Source: Euzebyales bacterium (GTDB lineage Bacteria; Actinomycetota; Nitriliruptoria; Euzebyales; JAHELV01). Taken from it: a stretch of DNA of 32,864 bases. The notes below the pieces were generated by a model, which worked only from the letters and a program-made list of their open reading frames with translations, was not told where the DNA came from and did no database searches. Position numbers and translations under genes: made by a program. Of the stretch, positions 19,270 through 26,275 are shown one piece after another. The stretch's first letter is position 1. Every line of letters starts with the position of its first letter. The DNA lies in the NCBI GenBank assembly GCA_036374135.1, contig DASUUK010000054.1:1-32864 (forward strand), in the 5' to 3' direction.

Positions 19270-20087
19270 CGACGTCCGTGGCGTTGGCGGTGCTCGACTT
19301 CTCGGGCACTTTGAGCCCTGGCGCCGCCGGGTTCGCCGCCGACGACCGGATCGCCGCCGAGCTGCGACGCAGCGGCCTCGCGGCGCTCGGGTTCGCCGAT
19401 CCGGCGGACTTCTGGCACGTGCTCGTGAACCCCACGTGGGAGCGCGGAAGCACATCCCGGATCGGCTACGTGACCGTCCTGACGGACGCCGCGGCCGCAC
19501 ACCTGGGTCGGCGCGGCGACGGCGTCGACCGGGTGGCCATCGCCCGGGCGGTCCGACGGTTCGCCGACCGGTACCTGACGGCATCGGCGATCGCGCACCC
19601 CTGGCACCGCTGGCTGCGACAGCTCGACGCGCTCACCGACGTGCGCGTGGTGGTCGCGACCGACCACTACGCGGAGGCGACCGACCGCATCGTCGACGAG
19701 CTCTCCGCGGCCGGCGTGACCGCGTCGTCGATCGCCGCGACCGCCCACGACGACGGCGGCACCACCACGCTGGTCGCCAACTCCGCCGATCTGGGGCATC
19801 ACAAGCAGGATCGCCACTTCTGGGAGATCGTGGCACGCACGGTGGGGCCCGTCTGCCGCCTGGCGGTCGCAGACGACTTCGGCGCCGCGGAACCGGGTGC
19901 GGACGCCTACGCGCAGGACGAGCGCGTGGGCCAACGGCGGGCGACGACGACCGCGCTGCTGGCCGCCGTGTTCGACGCCGACGTGACCACGGTCCGGTGC
20001 GCGCCGACGGATGCTGCCGACGCAACGACGGTCGACCGGGCCGGCCGTGCCCTGCTGGCGGCGCTCACGGAGCCCGACACCCGATAG
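19266..20087 (+). CDS. HAD-superfamily protein with DxS motif I, last gene of the thiamine operon
   Basis: A 273-residue haloacid dehalogenase-like protein. The motif I aspartate is D11, but the residue two places on, normally Asp in phosphatases, is Ser (D11-F-S13-G-T-L). Motif II is probably T132 in VVATDHY, motif III K180 in HHKQDRHFW, and motif IV D203/D204 in VADDFGAAE. The insert between residues 20 and 120 is helical and fits a C1-type cap. I chose GTG 19266 because it overlaps the tenA stop by 4 bases (GTGA) and starts just before the first β-strand. A link to thiamine is supported by position only: plant TH2 is a TenA-HAD fusion that dephosphorylates thiamine monophosphate. A thiamine or pyrimidine phosphate substrate is therefore a fair hypothesis. 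Loss of the acid/base Asp could mean altered chemistry. Confidence 0.8.
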   Translation: MTTSVALAVLDFSGTLSPGAAGFAADDRIAAELRRSGLAALGFADPADFWHVLVNPTWERGSTSRIGYVTVLTDAAAAHLGRRGDGVDRVAIARAVRRFADRYLTASAIAHPWHRWLRQLDALTDVRVVVATDHYAEATDRIVDELSAAGVTASSIAATAHDDGGTTTLVANSADLGHHKQDRHFWEIVARTVGPVCRLAVADDFGAAEPGADAYAQDERVGQRRATTTALLAAVFDADVTTVRCAPTDAADATTVDRAGRALLAALTEPDTR

Positions 20088-20261
20088 GCTCCCCGCTCGT
20101 GTCACACCGACTGGCGCGTGCAGGCCGCCGTACCTCGCGGCGGTCGCCCGGATCCCTGTGGGCGTCGCGCGACGACGGCACACCGCTCGGCCGCGCCGGT
20201 GCGTGCCACGTGCGGACCCGCCGGCGCCGCGCCGCTGGCGCCGCCGGGTGGACGTCCGGAC

Positions 20262-20267
20262 TAGCAT
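20262..20267 (+). promoter_or_regulatory. Probable -10 box for the DNA ligase gene
   Basis: TAGCAT lies 7 bases before a GTG at 20275 that is in frame with the ligase, the same hexamer and spacing as before the dehydratase gene at 7228. It may mark a leaderless start at GTG 20275, or a promoter with a roughly 72-base leader to ATG 20347. Confidence 0.4.
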
Positions 20268-20346
20268 GCGTCCCGTGCCCGGACGCCGCGACGGGCCTGC
20301 CGACCATCCGGACGCGATGCGCGACGATCATGGAGCGACGACCACC

Positions 20347-21411
20347 ATGCAGCTGCCGGTGATGCCCCCGATCTCGCCGATGCTGGCCAGGAACGCGGCG
20401 AAGCTGCCGACCGACGACGGATGGATCTTCGAGCCGAAGTGGGACGGCTTCCGCTGCCTGGTCTTCCGTGACGGCGACGAGGTCGAGCTGTGGTCACGCC
20501 ACGGTCGACCGTTCAACCGCTACTTCCCTGAGCTTGCGGACCCGCTCCGCGCACAGCTGCCGGACCGGATCGTCCTCGACGGCGAGCTCGTGGTGCCCGA
20601 CGGTGATGGGCTGAGCTTCGACCTGCTCGGCCAGCGCATCCATCCCGCCGAGTCCCGCGTCTCCATGCTGGCCGAGGCGACGCCGGCGCGGTTCGTCGCG
20701 TTCGACCTGCTGGCCCTCGGCGACGAGGATCTGCGCGCCACGCCGTTCGGCGAACGGCGCGAGCGTCTCGAACAGGTGCTGGCCGACGCCACCCCGCCGC
20801 TGCACCTGACGCCCGCGACCCGCGACCACGAGCTCGCCGCCGACTGGTTCGAGCGCTTCGAGGGGGCCGGCGTCGACGGCATCATCGCCAAGCCGGTCGA
20901 GGACCCCTACATCGAGGGCGCGCGCGCCCAGCGGAAGCTGAAGCACCAGCGCACCGCCGACGTGGTCGTTGCCGGCATGCGCTGGCACAAGAGCGGCGAC
21001 GGCGTCGGATCGATGTTGCTCGGGCTCTGGCGTGACGGGCACCTGCAGCACATCGGCGTGGCATCGTCGTTCTCGGCCAGGCGCAGGGTGGAACTGGTCG
21101 ACGAACTGGCCGACCTGCGGCTCGACGACCTGTCCGAGCACCCGTGGGCCGCGTGGTCCGACGAGGCCGCCCACGAGTCCCAGCGGCTCCCGGGCGCACC
21201 GTCGCGGTGGTCGGGCCAACGCGACTCAGGGTGGGTGCCGCTGCGCATCGCGCGGGTCGCCGAGGTCGGCTTCAACCAGCTGACAGACGGTCGCCTGCGC
21301 CATCCGGCCAAGTTCGTACGGTGGCGCCCCGACAAGCCGCCGGAGGACTGCACCTACGAGCAGCTCGAGGTCGCGCCGCCCGCCGAGCTCGACCATGTCT
21401 TCGGCGCCTGA
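20347..21411 (+). CDS. ATP-dependent DNA ligase, LigC type
   Basis: A 354-residue ligase with an adenylation domain (about 1-210) and an OB-fold domain (about 215-350). The nucleotidyl-accepting lysine is K31 in EPKWDGFR (motif I KxDG); later motifs include LDGELVV, FVAFDLLAL, VDGIIAKPV and the motif V lysines in RKLKHQRTADVVV. The N-terminal PVMPPISPMLA is typical of actinobacterial LigC, a short ligase used in repair, and length agrees. No Ku or LigD gene is nearby. The start is uncertain: ATG 20347 matches the family N-terminus, ATG 20317 and GTG 20275 are in frame and the GTG has a good -10 box in front of it. It converges with the XdhC-YHS gene, 88 bases between the stops. Confidence 0.92.
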   Translation: MQLPVMPPISPMLARNAAKLPTDDGWIFEPKWDGFRCLVFRDGDEVELWSRHGRPFNRYFPELADPLRAQLPDRIVLDGELVVPDGDGLSFDLLGQRIHPAESRVSMLAEATPARFVAFDLLALGDEDLRATPFGERRERLEQVLADATPPLHLTPATRDHELAADWFERFEGAGVDGIIAKPVEDPYIEGARAQRKLKHQRTADVVVAGMRWHKSGDGVGSMLLGLWRDGHLQHIGVASSFSARRRVELVDELADLRLDDLSEHPWAAWSDEAAHESQRLPGAPSRWSGQRDSGWVPLRIARVAEVGFNQLTDGRLRHPAKFVRWRPDKPPEDCTYEQLEVAPPAELDHVFGA

Positions 21412-21499: not shown

Positions 21500-22438
21500 T
21501 CAGCGCGTGGCGACCCAGCGGGCCCGGCAGCCGGCACAGCAGAACCATGCCGTCTCGCCGTCGACGTTCGCGGTGATCGCGTCGTCGGTCATCAGCACGG
21601 TCATGCCGCAGACGGGATCGACGGCCGTGCCCGGGGCCGTCGGCGTGTGGTCCGCCGCGGATCCGTCGTCCGTGGCGGACTTCTCGACCACGGCGACAGG
21701 TTCCCCGTGGCCACGCGACCGCCGGGACTCCACGAGCTCGGCCAGGATCGACAGCGCGATCTCCGGCGCGGTGCGCGCGCCGATGTCCAGACCCGCCGGC
21801 ATCGACACGCGCGCCCTGACGTCGTCGGGCACATCCAGTGACGCCAGGACGGCGCCGCCCCGGCGACGGCCGGCGACCAGCGCGACGTAGGGCACCTCGG
21901 CAGCGAGCGCGGCGGTCAGCGCCTGCTCCTCGCCGCGGCCGTGCGAGGCGACGACGACCGCAGCGAGGTCCGCGTCGACGAGCGTTGCATCGTCGATGGT
22001 GGCCGCGTCGAACCCGAGCGGCGTGGACAGGTCGACGAGCGCGTGGGCGATCGGGGTGTCGCCGACGACCAGGACACGGGCCGGTGGCGCGAGCGGCTCG
22101 AGGAAGATCTCGAGCGCACCACCGGACAGGCACGGGTTGGCGACGGTGATCGCTCCCTCGTCGGACGCGCCGACCGCCGTTGCGTCACCGCCTTCCGGCA
22201 GGATCCGCAGCAGCAGCGGCTCGCCGGCCTCGAGTGCCGCGCGGGCGTGGGTCTGCACGGACGCCTCGGCGCAGGTCCCGCCGACGAAGCCCTCGATCGT
22301 GCCGTCGGCGTGCACGAGGGCGCTGTCACCGGCGTGCACGCTGGTCGGGTGCTCGGCGCGCACGACAGTCGCCCGCACGTGTGGCACCCCCGCGTCGACC
22401 AGTTCGGCCGAGCGCTCGGCGACCGCGATGCGGCCCAT
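21500..22438 (-). CDS. XdhC/CoxI-family molybdenum-cofactor maturation protein with C-terminal YHS domain
   Basis: A 312-residue fusion. The N-terminal part has the XdhC/CoxI domain (FVGGTCAEASV, C56) and a Rossmann-like domain (VLVVGDTPIAHALVDL, then VVVASHGRGEEQAL and YVALVAGRRRG), as in proteins that load sulfurated molybdenum cofactor into xanthine or CO dehydrogenases. After a low-complexity linker (about 235-271) there is a YHS-type metal-binding module, residues 272-312, with DPVCGMTV (C277) and WFCCAGC (C300, C301, C304). I chose ATG 22438, one base after the coxL stop and 6 bases after GGTGGAG, over a longer frame from 22465. It is translationally coupled to coxL and so is probably the dedicated chaperone. 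The YHS part could hold copper or another soft metal; see the findings. Confidence 0.88.
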   Translation of the reverse strand: MGRIAVAERSAELVDAGVPHVRATVVRAEHPTSVHAGDSALVHADGTIEGFVGGTCAEASVQTHARAALEAGEPLLLRILPEGGDATAVGASDEGAITVANPCLSGGALEIFLEPLAPPARVLVVGDTPIAHALVDLSTPLGFDAATIDDATLVDADLAAVVVASHGRGEEQALTAALAAEVPYVALVAGRRRGGAVLASLDVPDDVRARVSMPAGLDIGARTAPEIALSILAELVESRRSRGHGEPVAVVEKSATDDGSAADHTPTAPGTAVDPVCGMTVLMTDDAITANVDGETAWFCCAGCRARWVATR

Positions 22439-22439
22439 C

Positions 22440-24833
22440 TCAGGCTCCACCGTCGTGCGTGGCACCGGCCCCCTCGTCCGACCGCGCGGTCTGGATCGCC
22501 TCCCAGACCTTCGACGGGGTCGCCGGCATGTCGATGTGGGTGATGCCGTACACCGACAGCGCGTCGACGATCGCGTTCATGATGACCGGCGGTGAACCGA
22601 CCGTCGCCGACTCGCCCACGCCTTTGGCACCGATCGGGTGGTGTGGGCTCGGGGTGACGGTGTAGTCGGTCTCCCAGTCCGGCACGTCCATCGCGGTCGG
22701 CATCAGGTAGTCCATGAACGAGCCGCCGAGGCAGTTGCCGAACTCGTCGAAGTCGATGATCTCCATCAGCGCCATGCCGACGCCGTCGGCGAGCCCGCCA
22801 TGGACCTGCCCCTCGATGATCATCGGGTTGATGCGGGTGCCACAGTCGTCCACGGCCACGAACCGGCGCACCGTGGTCTCACCGGTGCTCGGGTCGATGT
22901 CCACCACACAGATGTACGCGCCGTGGGGATACGTCAGGTTCGGCGGGTTGTAGGTCGTCATCGCCTCGAGCGATCCCTCGACGCCGTCCGGCAGGTCCAC
23001 CGCACCGTGGGCCGCCATCGCGATCTCGGCAATCGTCTTGGCGCTGTCGGGATCGCCCCTGACGGTGAAGCGGCCCTTGTCCCACTCGAGGTCGTCGGGA
23101 CTGACCTCCAGCATGCCGGCGGCGATCACGCGTGCCTTGTCACGGACCTTGCGGGACGTGATCGCGACCGCGGCGCCGCTGACCGGCGTCGAACGGCTGC
23201 CATACGTCCCCAGTCCGAACGGCGTCTGGTCCGTGTCGCCGTGTACGACGTCGATGTCCTCCGGCGGGATGCCCAGCTCCTCGGCCACGATCTGGGCGAA
23301 CGTGGTCTCGTGGCCCTGCCCCTGCGTCTGCACGGACAGCCGCACCACGGCCTTGCCGGTCGGGTGCACGCGGACCTCCGAGCTGTCGGCCATGCCGAGC
23401 CCCAGGATGTCCATGTGACGCCGCGGGCCGGCGCCGACCGCCTCGGTGAAGAACCCGACGCCGATGCCCATGAGCTCGCCGCGCTCACGCCGCTCCGCCT
23501 GCTCGCGACGCAGCTCGTCGTACCCGGCGACGTCGAGCGCCTTGCGCAGCGTCGCGGGGTAGTCCCCGGAGTCGTACTCCCACCCCGTCTTGGTGGTGTA
23601 GGGGAACTGGTCGGGTTGGATCAGGTTGCGCATGCGCAGCTCGGCCGGGTCCATGCCGAGCTCGACCGCCAGCCGGTCGACCATGCGCTCGACCAGGTAC
23701 ACCGCCTCGGTCACACGGAACGAGCAGGCGTACGCCACTCCGCCCGGCGCCTTGTTGGTGTAGACCCCGGTGACCTTGCAGTGCGCCGCCTGGAGGTCGT
23801 AGCTGCCGGTGAACACGTGGAAGAACCCGGCGGGATACTTGGTCGGCTGGGCGGTGCCGTTGTGCGCGCCGTGGTCGGCCAGCACGTTCGTGCGGACCGC
23901 CAGGATCGTCCCGTCGCTCGTGGCGGCGATCTCGCCGGTCATGTGGTAGTCCCGCGCGAACGCGGTGGACATGAGGTTCTCGGAGCGATCCTCGACCCAC
24001 TTGACCGGACGCCCCGTGACGATCGAGGCGACGATGGCGCACACGTAGCCCGGGTAGATCCCGACCTTGCCGCCGAAGCCACCGCCCACGTCCGGTGAGA
24101 TCACCCGGATCTTGTGCTCCGGGATGCCGGCAACCAGCGCGTACAGCGTGCGGTGCGCGTGTGGCGCCTGGGTGGTCTCGTACAGCGTGAGCTTGCCGCT
24201 GACTTGGTCGTAGTCGGCGACAGCCCCGCAGGTCTCCAGCGGCGCCGGATGCACCCGCGGGTAGACCATGTCCTGGCTGACCACCACGTCGGCGCTGGCG
24301 AACACCCGGTCGCACTCGTCGGTGTCGCCAGCCTCCCAGTCGAAGATGTGGTTGTCGGTCCTGCCCTCGAGATCGTCGCGGATGACGGGTGCGTCGTCGT
24401 CCAGCGCATGGTGCGGGTCGATGACCGCGTCGAGGATGTCGTACTCGACGTCGATGAGCTCGAGCGCATCCCGGGCGGTGTAACGGTCGTCGGCGACGAC
24501 GAACGCGACCTCCTGCCCCTGGAAGCGCACCTTGTCGGTCACCAGCACCGACTGCGTGTCCGACGACAGCGTGGGCATCCACGCCAGGTTGAGCGGCTCG
24601 AGGTCGGCGCCCGTGATGACCGCGTGCACGCCCGGGTGCTCGACGGCCGCGCTGGTGTCGATCGACGCGATGCGCGCATGGGCGACGGGCGAGCGCAGGA
24701 CAGCGCCGTGCAGCATGTCGGGCAGCACGATGTCGTCGACGTAGGTCCCCTGACCGCGGATGAAGCGCGGATCCTCCTTGCGCTTGAGCCGGCCGAAGCC
24801 GATGGGGCGGTCCTGTTCGGGTGCGGTCGTCAC
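22440..24833 (-). CDS. coxL: Aerobic carbon monoxide dehydrogenase, large (molybdenum) subunit, form I
   Basis: A 797-residue molybdenum hydroxylase large subunit. The active-site loop GGVAYACSFRVTEA matches AYxCSFR, the motif that separates true CO dehydrogenase (form I) from form II homologues (AYRGAGR); C370 would carry the Cu-S-Mo bridge. GGGFGGKVG supplies the molybdopterin-near Gly/Phe loop and GVGESATVGSPP the catalytic Glu. The enzyme oxidises CO with water to CO2, passing electrons through CoxS and CoxM to the respiratory chain. GTG 24833 overlaps the coxS stop (GTGA) and has AGGAGG 7 bases upstream. Order coxM-coxS-coxL is the form I order. It is followed by the XdhC-YHS gene with one base between. 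Confidence 0.95.
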   Translation of the reverse strand: MTTAPEQDRPIGFGRLKRKEDPRFIRGQGTYVDDIVLPDMLHGAVLRSPVAHARIASIDTSAAVEHPGVHAVITGADLEPLNLAWMPTLSSDTQSVLVTDKVRFQGQEVAFVVADDRYTARDALELIDVEYDILDAVIDPHHALDDDAPVIRDDLEGRTDNHIFDWEAGDTDECDRVFASADVVVSQDMVYPRVHPAPLETCGAVADYDQVSGKLTLYETTQAPHAHRTLYALVAGIPEHKIRVISPDVGGGFGGKVGIYPGYVCAIVASIVTGRPVKWVEDRSENLMSTAFARDYHMTGEIAATSDGTILAVRTNVLADHGAHNGTAQPTKYPAGFFHVFTGSYDLQAAHCKVTGVYTNKAPGGVAYACSFRVTEAVYLVERMVDRLAVELGMDPAELRMRNLIQPDQFPYTTKTGWEYDSGDYPATLRKALDVAGYDELRREQAERRERGELMGIGVGFFTEAVGAGPRRHMDILGLGMADSSEVRVHPTGKAVVRLSVQTQGQGHETTFAQIVAEELGIPPEDIDVVHGDTDQTPFGLGTYGSRSTPVSGAAVAITSRKVRDKARVIAAGMLEVSPDDLEWDKGRFTVRGDPDSAKTIAEIAMAAHGAVDLPDGVEGSLEAMTTYNPPNLTYPHGAYICVVDIDPSTGETTVRRFVAVDDCGTRINPMIIEGQVHGGLADGVGMALMEIIDFDEFGNCLGGSFMDYLMPTAMDVPDWETDYTVTPSPHHPIGAKGVGESATVGSPPVIMNAIVDALSVYGITHIDMPATPSKVWEAIQTARSDEGAGATHDGGA

Positions 24834-25360
24834 GATGCCACCTCCTGGCCCTCCCCGGCCTCTGTCGCGACGGGCGCACCATCGGCGCGATGACCGTTGG
24901 CCCCGCCGTGTTCGGCTGCCCAGCGGATCGAGCGGACGATCGTCGCGTAGCCCGTGCAACGGCACAGCTGTCCGCTGATCGCCTCGCGGATCTCGTCGGT
25001 CGATGGGTGGGGGTTGTCGTCGAGCAACGCCCGGGCCGTCAACATCATCCCCGGGGTGCAGAAGCCGCACTGCAGGCCGTGGCACTCCATGAAGCCCTGC
25101 TGGACGGGATCGAGCTCGCCGTTCTGCTCGAGGCCCTCGACTGTGCGCACCTCATGGCCGACGGTCATCGCCGCGAGCGTCGTGCAGCTCTTGACAGGTT
25201 CGCCGTCGATCAGCACGACGCAGGTGCCGCAGTTGCTCGTGTCGCATCCCCAGTGCGTGCCGGTCAACCCCAGCTCGTCGCGCAGGAAGTGGACCAGCAG
25301 CATGCGTGGCTCGACGTCGCGCTGGTACTCGACGTCGTTCACGGTCAGTGTCACGTCCAT
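24830..25360 (-). CDS. coxS: Aerobic carbon monoxide dehydrogenase, small [2Fe-2S] subunit
   Basis: A 176-residue iron-sulfur subunit with two [2Fe-2S] clusters. The plant-ferredoxin-type cluster is bound by C39, C44, C47 and C59 (GCDTSNCGTC, then KSCTT); the second by C98, C101, C133 and C135 (QCGFCTPGMM and CRCTGY). All eight cysteines are present. It relays electrons from the molybdenum site in CoxL to FAD in CoxM. The last 25 residues, after the second cluster, are a non-conserved Ala/Gly/Glu tail. AAGGAGGA lies 5 bases before the ATG. It is 45 bases after coxM and overlaps coxL by 4 bases. Confidence 0.96.
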   Translation of the reverse strand: MDVTLTVNDVEYQRDVEPRMLLVHFLRDELGLTGTHWGCDTSNCGTCVVLIDGEPVKSCTTLAAMTVGHEVRTVEGLEQNGELDPVQQGFMECHGLQCGFCTPGMMLTARALLDDNPHPSTDEIREAISGQLCRCTGYATIVRSIRWAAEHGGANGHRADGAPVATEAGEGQEVAS

Positions 25361-25405: not shown

Positions 25406-26275
25406 CTAACGGCCCTGGGAACGGTCGACAGCGCGGCGCAGCGCGCGGGTCGTCAGTTCTCCGGCGAGGTGCCGCTTGTACGCTTCGGACCCGCGCTGGT
25501 CCGCCACCGGCTCGCAGTCCTCGGCGGCCAGCTTGCCGGCCTCGGCGTACAGGTCCTCGTCGGGTTCGCGGCCCCGCACGACGTCCTGGGCGCGTGTGGC
25601 CACACCGCCGTCGATGCCGACCGCCGTCAAACCGATGCCGACGTCGTCGATGACCCCGTCGTTCATCCAGACGACCACGCCGGCCGCGGCGATCGCCCAG
25701 TCGCCCACGCGGCGTTCGACCTTCTCGTAGGCGGAGCCGGCTCCCGGACGGATGGGGAGCCTGATCTCGGTCAGGATCTCGTGCGGCTCGACGGCTGTCT
25801 CGTAGGGCCCACGGTGGAACTCGGGCATGGTCAGCGTGCGTTCGCCGTCCGGGCCGCGGATGACCAACTCGGCCGACCACGCGTTGCACACCGTCGACAG
25901 GTCCTCGCCCGGGTCGGCCTGGCACAGGGAGCCGCCGATCGTGCCGCGGTTGCGCACGACCGGGTCGGCGATGACCTTCTCGGCGTCGGTGATCATCGGT
26001 GCCAGGCGCGCGACCGTGTCCGACGACAGCAACGCCGCGTGACGGGTCAACGCACCCAGCCGCAACGTGTCGCCGTCCTCGATGACGTAGGCCAGGTCAC
26101 CGCAGTCGTTGATGTCGACCAGGACATCGGGCCTGACCAGACGCAGTTTCATCATCGGCAACAGGCTGTGCCCGCCCGCGATGATCTGCGCCTCGTCGCC
26201 GTACCGGCCGAGCAGGTCGAGCGCGTGATCGACGTCCCTGGCCCGCTCGTACTGGAATGGTGCGGGTACCTGCAT
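25406..26275 (-). CDS. coxM: Aerobic carbon monoxide dehydrogenase, medium FAD subunit
   Basis: A 289-residue FAD-binding subunit. The two flavin loops are AGGHSLLPMMKLR (about 34-46) and TIGGSLCQADPGED (about 116-129); the latter differs slightly from the TIGGNIANADPAND seen in the characterised Oligotropha enzyme. It accepts electrons from CoxS and passes them to the quinone pool. I chose ATG 26275, preceded by GGAGGTGGAG; the frame is open further upstream, but that sequence is non-coding in character. It is the first gene of the cox cluster, so its upstream region (26276-26530) should hold the cluster promoter. Confidence 0.94.
   Translation of the reverse strand: MQVPAPFQYERARDVDHALDLLGRYGDEAQIIAGGHSLLPMMKLRLVRPDVLVDINDCGDLAYVIEDGDTLRLGALTRHAALLSSDTVARLAPMITDAEKVIADPVVRNRGTIGGSLCQADPGEDLSTVCNAWSAELVIRGPDGERTLTMPEFHRGPYETAVEPHEILTEIRLPIRPGAGSAYEKVERRVGDWAIAAAGVVVWMNDGVIDDVGIGLTAVGIDGGVATRAQDVVRGREPDEDLYAEAGKLAAEDCEPVADQRGSEAYKRHLAGELTTRALRRAVDRSQGR

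Follow-up and report, generated by a model that had tools for sequence, protein, structure and literature searches.

Soil actinobacteria and Chloroflexota remove CO from air, and XdhC proteins hold the apo-enzyme or the cofactor for their partner enzymes. To our knowledge, the route that copper takes to the only known Mo-Cu active site, that of form I CO dehydrogenase, is unsolved. A need for CoxD, CoxE and CoxF has been demonstrated in one alphaproteobacterium. In Afipia (Oligotropha) carboxidovorans, the copper content of the enzyme was 1.47 per mol in the wild type and only 0.043 in the coxF mutant, which kept its Mo, FAD and FeS; sulfur was near-normal, but somewhat less and partly wrong, with an altered pool (PMC4240915). 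Copper was likewise missing from the CO dehydrogenase of cells without CoxE, and the authors proposed the motif CPSHGTM as the copper site of CoxF (PMC4240915). With regard to YHS modules, the one of the M. phlei adenylyl cyclase is activated by Cu2+ and by no other tested metal; YHS/TRASH modules can also bind Zn or Cd, and the YHS domain of phenol hydroxylase had no metal in the crystal (PMC4626032).

The window, i.e. the whole stretch of 32,864 nucleotides analyzed here, carries a set of cox genes on the minus strand. These are coxM for the FAD medium subunit (25406..26275; PF00941 and PF03450), coxS for the 2Fe-2S small subunit (24830..25360; an ORF that matches coxS genes of relatives at 56-86%, with the gene order conserved), coxL for the large subunit (22440..24833) and a coxF-type gene (21500..22438). 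The CoxL is of form I, as read from the active-site motif AYACSFR and from a TIGR02416 score of 1369 bits (cut-off 991), and its start is probably the GTG at 24833, which overlaps the coxS stop. Pfam, the homologues and AlphaFold2 describe the product of the coxF-type gene as a 312 aa maturation protein for Moco enzymes, of the XdhC family, with a C-terminal YHS/TRASH module. The original prediction had proposed an XdhC-YHS fusion coupled to coxL, and both parts were borne out: the frame runs from 22438 to 21500 on the minus strand (the strand had not been given before), with DPVCGM at residues 274-279 and FCCAGC at 299-304, and its ATG at 22438 lies one base past the stop of the form I coxL, with a GGAG upstream at 22448-22445. 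Within the window there is no coxD, coxE or coxG. An ATP-dependent DNA ligase gene (20011-21411, plus strand) is convergent with coxF.

The body of the protein belongs to the XdhC family. The XdhC_CoxI domain (PF02625; residues 14-78, 22205..22399, minus strand) scores 60.8 bits against a cut-off of 24.3 and carries the invariant C56; the Rossmann domain XdhC_C (PF13478; residues 122-235, 21734..22075, minus strand) scores 69 bits against 29.7. Alignments place another invariant cysteine, C103 of NPCLSGG, between the two domains, just ahead of XdhC_C, and Foldseek matched the fold of the body to 2we8 and 3on5. The low-complexity linker that had been noted before the tail (residues 245-269, 21632..21706, minus strand) turned out to be both variable, with length and sequence differing among homologues, and disordered: in the AlphaFold2 model, pLDDT is under 50 for residues 245-255 and up to about 66 over 245-269. 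It is followed by the YHS/TRASH module (residues 272-312, 21503..21625, minus strand), recognized by profiles, alignments and models, whose predicted metal ligands are D274, C277, C300 and C304.

These four residues correspond to the ligand set of D or C followed by C-x19-22-C-x3-C. Taken in isolation, the window tail reaches 27.2 bits with TRASH_HVO_1752_C (cut-off 27) and 16 bits with YHS (cut-off 30.3); among 40 aligned homologous tails, 38 matched Pfam YHS with E<=0.01 (best 2e-18). In an alignment of 68 sequences, partly picked for having the tail, C277, C300 and C304 are invariant and D274 is conserved in more than 90%. In AlphaFold2 the full protein has a mean pLDDT of 90 and the tail 91-96; predicted alone, the tail reaches 96. 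The fold search with the whole model gave matches to the XdhC body only and none to the tail; with the tail alone, the nearest solved folds were TRASH domains of L24e type, with E-values as weak as a length of 45 residues would lead one to expect. We consider that the tail is not a product of chance, since all 18 of the first-found strong homologues share it together with invariant columns (P, C, G, M, V, F, C and C), and since it is confidently folded in the AlphaFold2 model.

Those 18 proteins were the further full-length homologues found when 61 related genomes were searched with the whole protein. In Actinomycetota, 396 genomes gave 61 strong matches, which were 56 tailed proteins, 4 tail-less ones and one cut by a contig end, i.e. 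a tailed share of 56/60 among the readable members of the clade. One of the proteins counted as tailed (G200) has its tail after a long linker; in another genome (G419), the match of 211 bits covers residues 93-294 only and the tail is present. The scores in this phylum were bimodal, and, among the matches listed (to about E 2e-22), the weaker group, below 165 bits, was without a complete tail. In Chloroflexota, all 56 matches above 200 bits reach the tail end and every lower match stops short. The tail was found in none of the 14 CoxF-type matches from Alphaproteobacteria. A scan of species genomes showed the same arrangement in Streptomyces, Kribbella, Mycobacterium, Rhodococcus and Arthrobacter and, beyond Actinomycetota, in Chloroflexi, Rokubacteria, Gemmatimonadota, Acidobacteria, Meiothermus, Bacteroidota, Natrinema (haloarchaea) and others, and plasmid records added tailed proteins of Thermomicrobium roseum and Paraburkholderia. 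The counts omit six apparently tail-less proteins that run off their contig or stretch (L145, L155, L220, L233, L323 and L326). Two other observations concern the module. A CoxF from Chloroflexota (L126 7001-8149, also L331) carries a tandem pair of YHS modules, the first DPVCGMAV...FCSESC and the second DPVCGMTV...FCGAGC. In addition, a YHS-only match to the tail lies in a frame of 298 residues outside the XdhC family (G039 C1:4989242-4989406).

Wherever the contig extends, the genes of the 18 homologues lie directly downstream of a form I coxL (AYACSFR or AYRCSFR). Over 166 distinct tailed proteins, a form I coxL was located within 4 kb in 140; the other 26 comprise 10 beside a coxL of unread form, 15 with no coxL in the stretch, and one nearer to a form II coxL. 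Nearly all of the tailed proteins that do not have a form I coxL nearby are cut by the ends of contigs or stretches. In the form II case (L151), the own coxM and coxS of the tailed gene run off the contig, and a form I coxL lies on another contig of the genome. When 12 genomes were queried, a form I coxL was found elsewhere in those behind L126, L129, L148, L157, L163, L151 and L100; outside these seven are L131 and L119, whose genomes are incomplete or cut at the contig end. In the loci of Chloroflexota, the form I motif was read in 24/30 and the remaining ones are unreadable. On these counts, a fusion lying mainly beside form II or xanthine dehydrogenase genes, which would have spoken against the original prediction, is rejected, and the association with form I holds across several phyla. 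As for other XdhC proteins, about 80 of them were without the tail (four apparent exceptions were fragments of tailed proteins already counted), in searches that began from the tailed clade and so speak more strongly for this clade being that of form I than for no other XdhC having a YHS tail. Within these searches, the tail is restricted to the XdhC clade linked to form I.

By gene position and sequence, the window gene is the putative counterpart of coxF. It belongs to a form I coxMSL operon, and most relatives have coxD and coxE there, which in this genus are not adjacent. The nearest kin of the window protein are the XdhC proteins linked to form I, with other XdhC proteins more distant, as indicated by the bimodal scores and by a tree of 160 form I-type proteins, built without an outgroup of other XdhC. 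The gene order of plasmid pHCG3 is coxM-S-L-D-E-F-G, with which the orders M-S-L-F-D-E and M-S-L-G-D-E-F of relatives agree. In loci of Paraburkholderia, Bacteroidota and Verrucomicrobia type, the tailed gene follows coxE, in the F position; that of Actinomycetota has moved to directly after coxL, and is usually followed by coxD and coxE.

In our reading, to which we would give a probability of about 0.6, the window gene encodes a CoxF that belongs to the operon of a form I (Cu-Mo) CO dehydrogenase and has a soft-metal module of its own, most likely a donor of Cu(I) to CoxL. The XdhC body would hold the apo-enzyme or the molybdenum cofactor. In the YHS/TRASH module, which sits on a flexible linker, D274, C277, C300 and C304 would be the ligands for a soft metal, with Cu(I) as the most likely one; the module would pass this metal to the sulfurated Mo site in CoxL, where it would bridge to the cysteine of AYACSFR. 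CoxD, an AAA+ ATPase, and CoxE, a VWA protein, would still act, and here they would come from a form II locus. A role in loading or relaying copper is suggested because the ligand spacing equals that of the M. phlei YHS module and because the linker joins the tail to a chaperone whose client is the only copper-requiring enzyme in the superfamily. We infer from this that the tail binds copper and donates it.

The proteins that do without the module are informative in this respect. Nine actinobacterial CoxF are naturally tail-less, and five of them end in a Cys/His-rich peptide (CCGHGSG, DCCHGHG, HAHHRCHDD, QHCAAHGH and VCAEHCHVQ; loci L215, L217, L322, L325 and L135 (XdhC gene after coxL)). Ends of this kind were observed in 1/77 other XdhC proteins (Fisher p 2e-5 for 5/9 versus these, with a criterion that was set after viewing the sequences and with three grouped cases that are not independent), in 0/12 alphaproteobacterial CoxF and in 0/719 C-termini of CoxL, M, S, D, E and G. 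On a quick tree, the five represent at least three lineages: three cluster together, one is of mycobacterial type and one sits beside a tailed relative. These replacement tails are suggestive, and may favor a module that loads a soft metal, probably copper. The remaining four of the nine have neither the YHS module nor a Cys/His tail. Since these four and the alphaproteobacteria, A. carboxidovorans included, lack the module, the reaction does not depend on it; the tail would improve or adapt the step, and is not indispensable. A frameshift or an assembly error behind the loss of the tail was not seen, the tail-less frames ending naturally before the next gene or overlapping it. A six-frame motif scan near tail-less cox clusters, that of pHCG3 included, revealed no separate YHS gene. 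After the CoxF end, or overlapping it, a MobA/MocA-like nucleotidyltransferase frame (LVLAAGGSRRLG.PKQLLPYG) is present in L215, L218, L219, L322, L324, L325 and L327; it precedes coxD where coxD is visible, and is not present in the window.

Other roles of the tail can be considered against the same data. The one that survives best, although we regard it as unlikely, is that of a copper sensor or gate, in which the tail would turn the XdhC body on only with copper available and so avoid wrong-metal or half-made enzyme. The best studied YHS tail, that of the M. phlei cyclase, acts as a copper-dependent switch (PMC4626032), and the flexible linker fits either role. However, tails as short as DCCHGHG or HCAAHGH resemble chelators or metal escorts rather than folded switches, and CoxF is itself needed for the insertion of copper (PMC4240915), which makes donation the simpler reading. 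Less probable still is a structural or docking module that would bind Zn or no metal and help CoxF to bind CoxL, CoxD or CoxE. TRASH domains do include structural zinc or cadmium sites, as in L24e and ZMYM5, and the YHS domain of phenol hydroxylase has no known metal role; yet the XdhC proteins that serve other enzymes lack the tail, and it has been fully lost in some lineages, in several of which Cys/His-rich peptides of unrelated fold are found instead. It has to be considered also, as a quite improbable case, that what the cysteines of the tail carry is not a metal but persulfide sulfur destined for the Mo=S ligand. XdhC proteins act in the sulfuration of enzymes (PMC2997495), and the sulfur of the coxF mutant described above is somewhat low and partly wrong (PMC4240915); but all XdhC enzymes need sulfuration, and nevertheless only the chaperone of the copper enzyme bears the tail, and what the mutant misses is copper, not sulfur.

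The original prediction also saw in the tail a substitute for missing coxD-type genes, and this part is almost certainly wrong: in this genus (G000, G002 and G003) coxD, coxE and coxG are indeed not beside the form I locus, but coxD and coxE lie within 6 kb in 41 of the 48 tailed loci that have 6 kb of flank on both sides of the tailed gene, the loci of tail-less CoxF also have both genes, and the window genome has them on contig C33. There (G000 contig C33, L035 3645-12152), a cluster of form II type contains coxS, coxL (AYRGAGR), coxM, coxD and coxE, and it also includes a two-domain XdhC without the tail and a nucleotidyltransferase-CoxG frame. In T. roseum, which oxidises CO, the tailed gene comes after coxMSL and the accessory genes are in a separate operon (PMC6776052).

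In a full-text literature search, with subscription papers outside its reach, no paper on XdhC/CoxF joined to YHS/TRASH was found; the architecture may be listed in domain databases. A CoxF extended by a predicted metal-binding module is widespread, and seems to be undescribed. Most of the non-alphaproteobacterial form I CO oxidisers examined carry a separate folded module, predicted to bind metal, on their CoxF. The tail is a testable candidate for the missing source of copper, and it also provides a sequence marker for the chaperones of true copper CO dehydrogenases versus those of form II enzymes. A broader proposal, which we hold tentatively and would place slightly below even odds, is that outside alphaproteobacteria the form I enzymes of most bacterial phyla and of haloarchaea are loaded with copper by a dedicated chaperone module, and that a short chelating tail of Cys and His can take the place of a lost YHS. 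If this is true, one function has been kept by unrelated sequences, the YHS module and the Cys/His tail, and there is a genomic marker that tells the chaperone of a copper-requiring enzyme from every other XdhC.

Compared with the known systems, the window protein resembles the CoxF of A. carboxidovorans OM5 (plasmid pHCG3) in its XdhC_CoxI and Rossmann domains, with 34% identity over 265 residues, and in the location of the gene, which is in a coxMSL-D-E-F operon there; it differs in that pHCG3 CoxF has no YHS module and ends in RRHGQRQSDNQKEGTS. The window C103 aligns with the Cys of the CPSHGTM site of that protein (M107CPSHGTM; L225). This Cys is the general XdhC cysteine and the His was observed in 1/14 readable alphaproteobacterial homologues, and we rejected CPSHGTM as a conserved copper site on this count. 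The XdhC of R. capsulatus and the M. smegmatis homologue of Rv0376c (2we7/2we8) have the XdhC fold in common with the window protein over the body (Foldseek E 1e-14), but they carry no YHS tail, and the 2we7/2we8 chains have only about 26% identity to it. In profile and fold comparisons, the tail came closest to the TRASH/L24e and phenol hydroxylase YHS domains, which differ in their ribosomal or hydroxylase setting, with no link to a molybdenum enzyme. The YHS module of the M. phlei adenylyl cyclase is likewise C-terminal and on a linker, and D-x2-C-x22-C-x3-C is found in both proteins (D178, C181, C204 and C208 in the cyclase); there, however, the module is fused to a cyclase and serves as a copper-dependent switch rather than a donor (PMC4626032).
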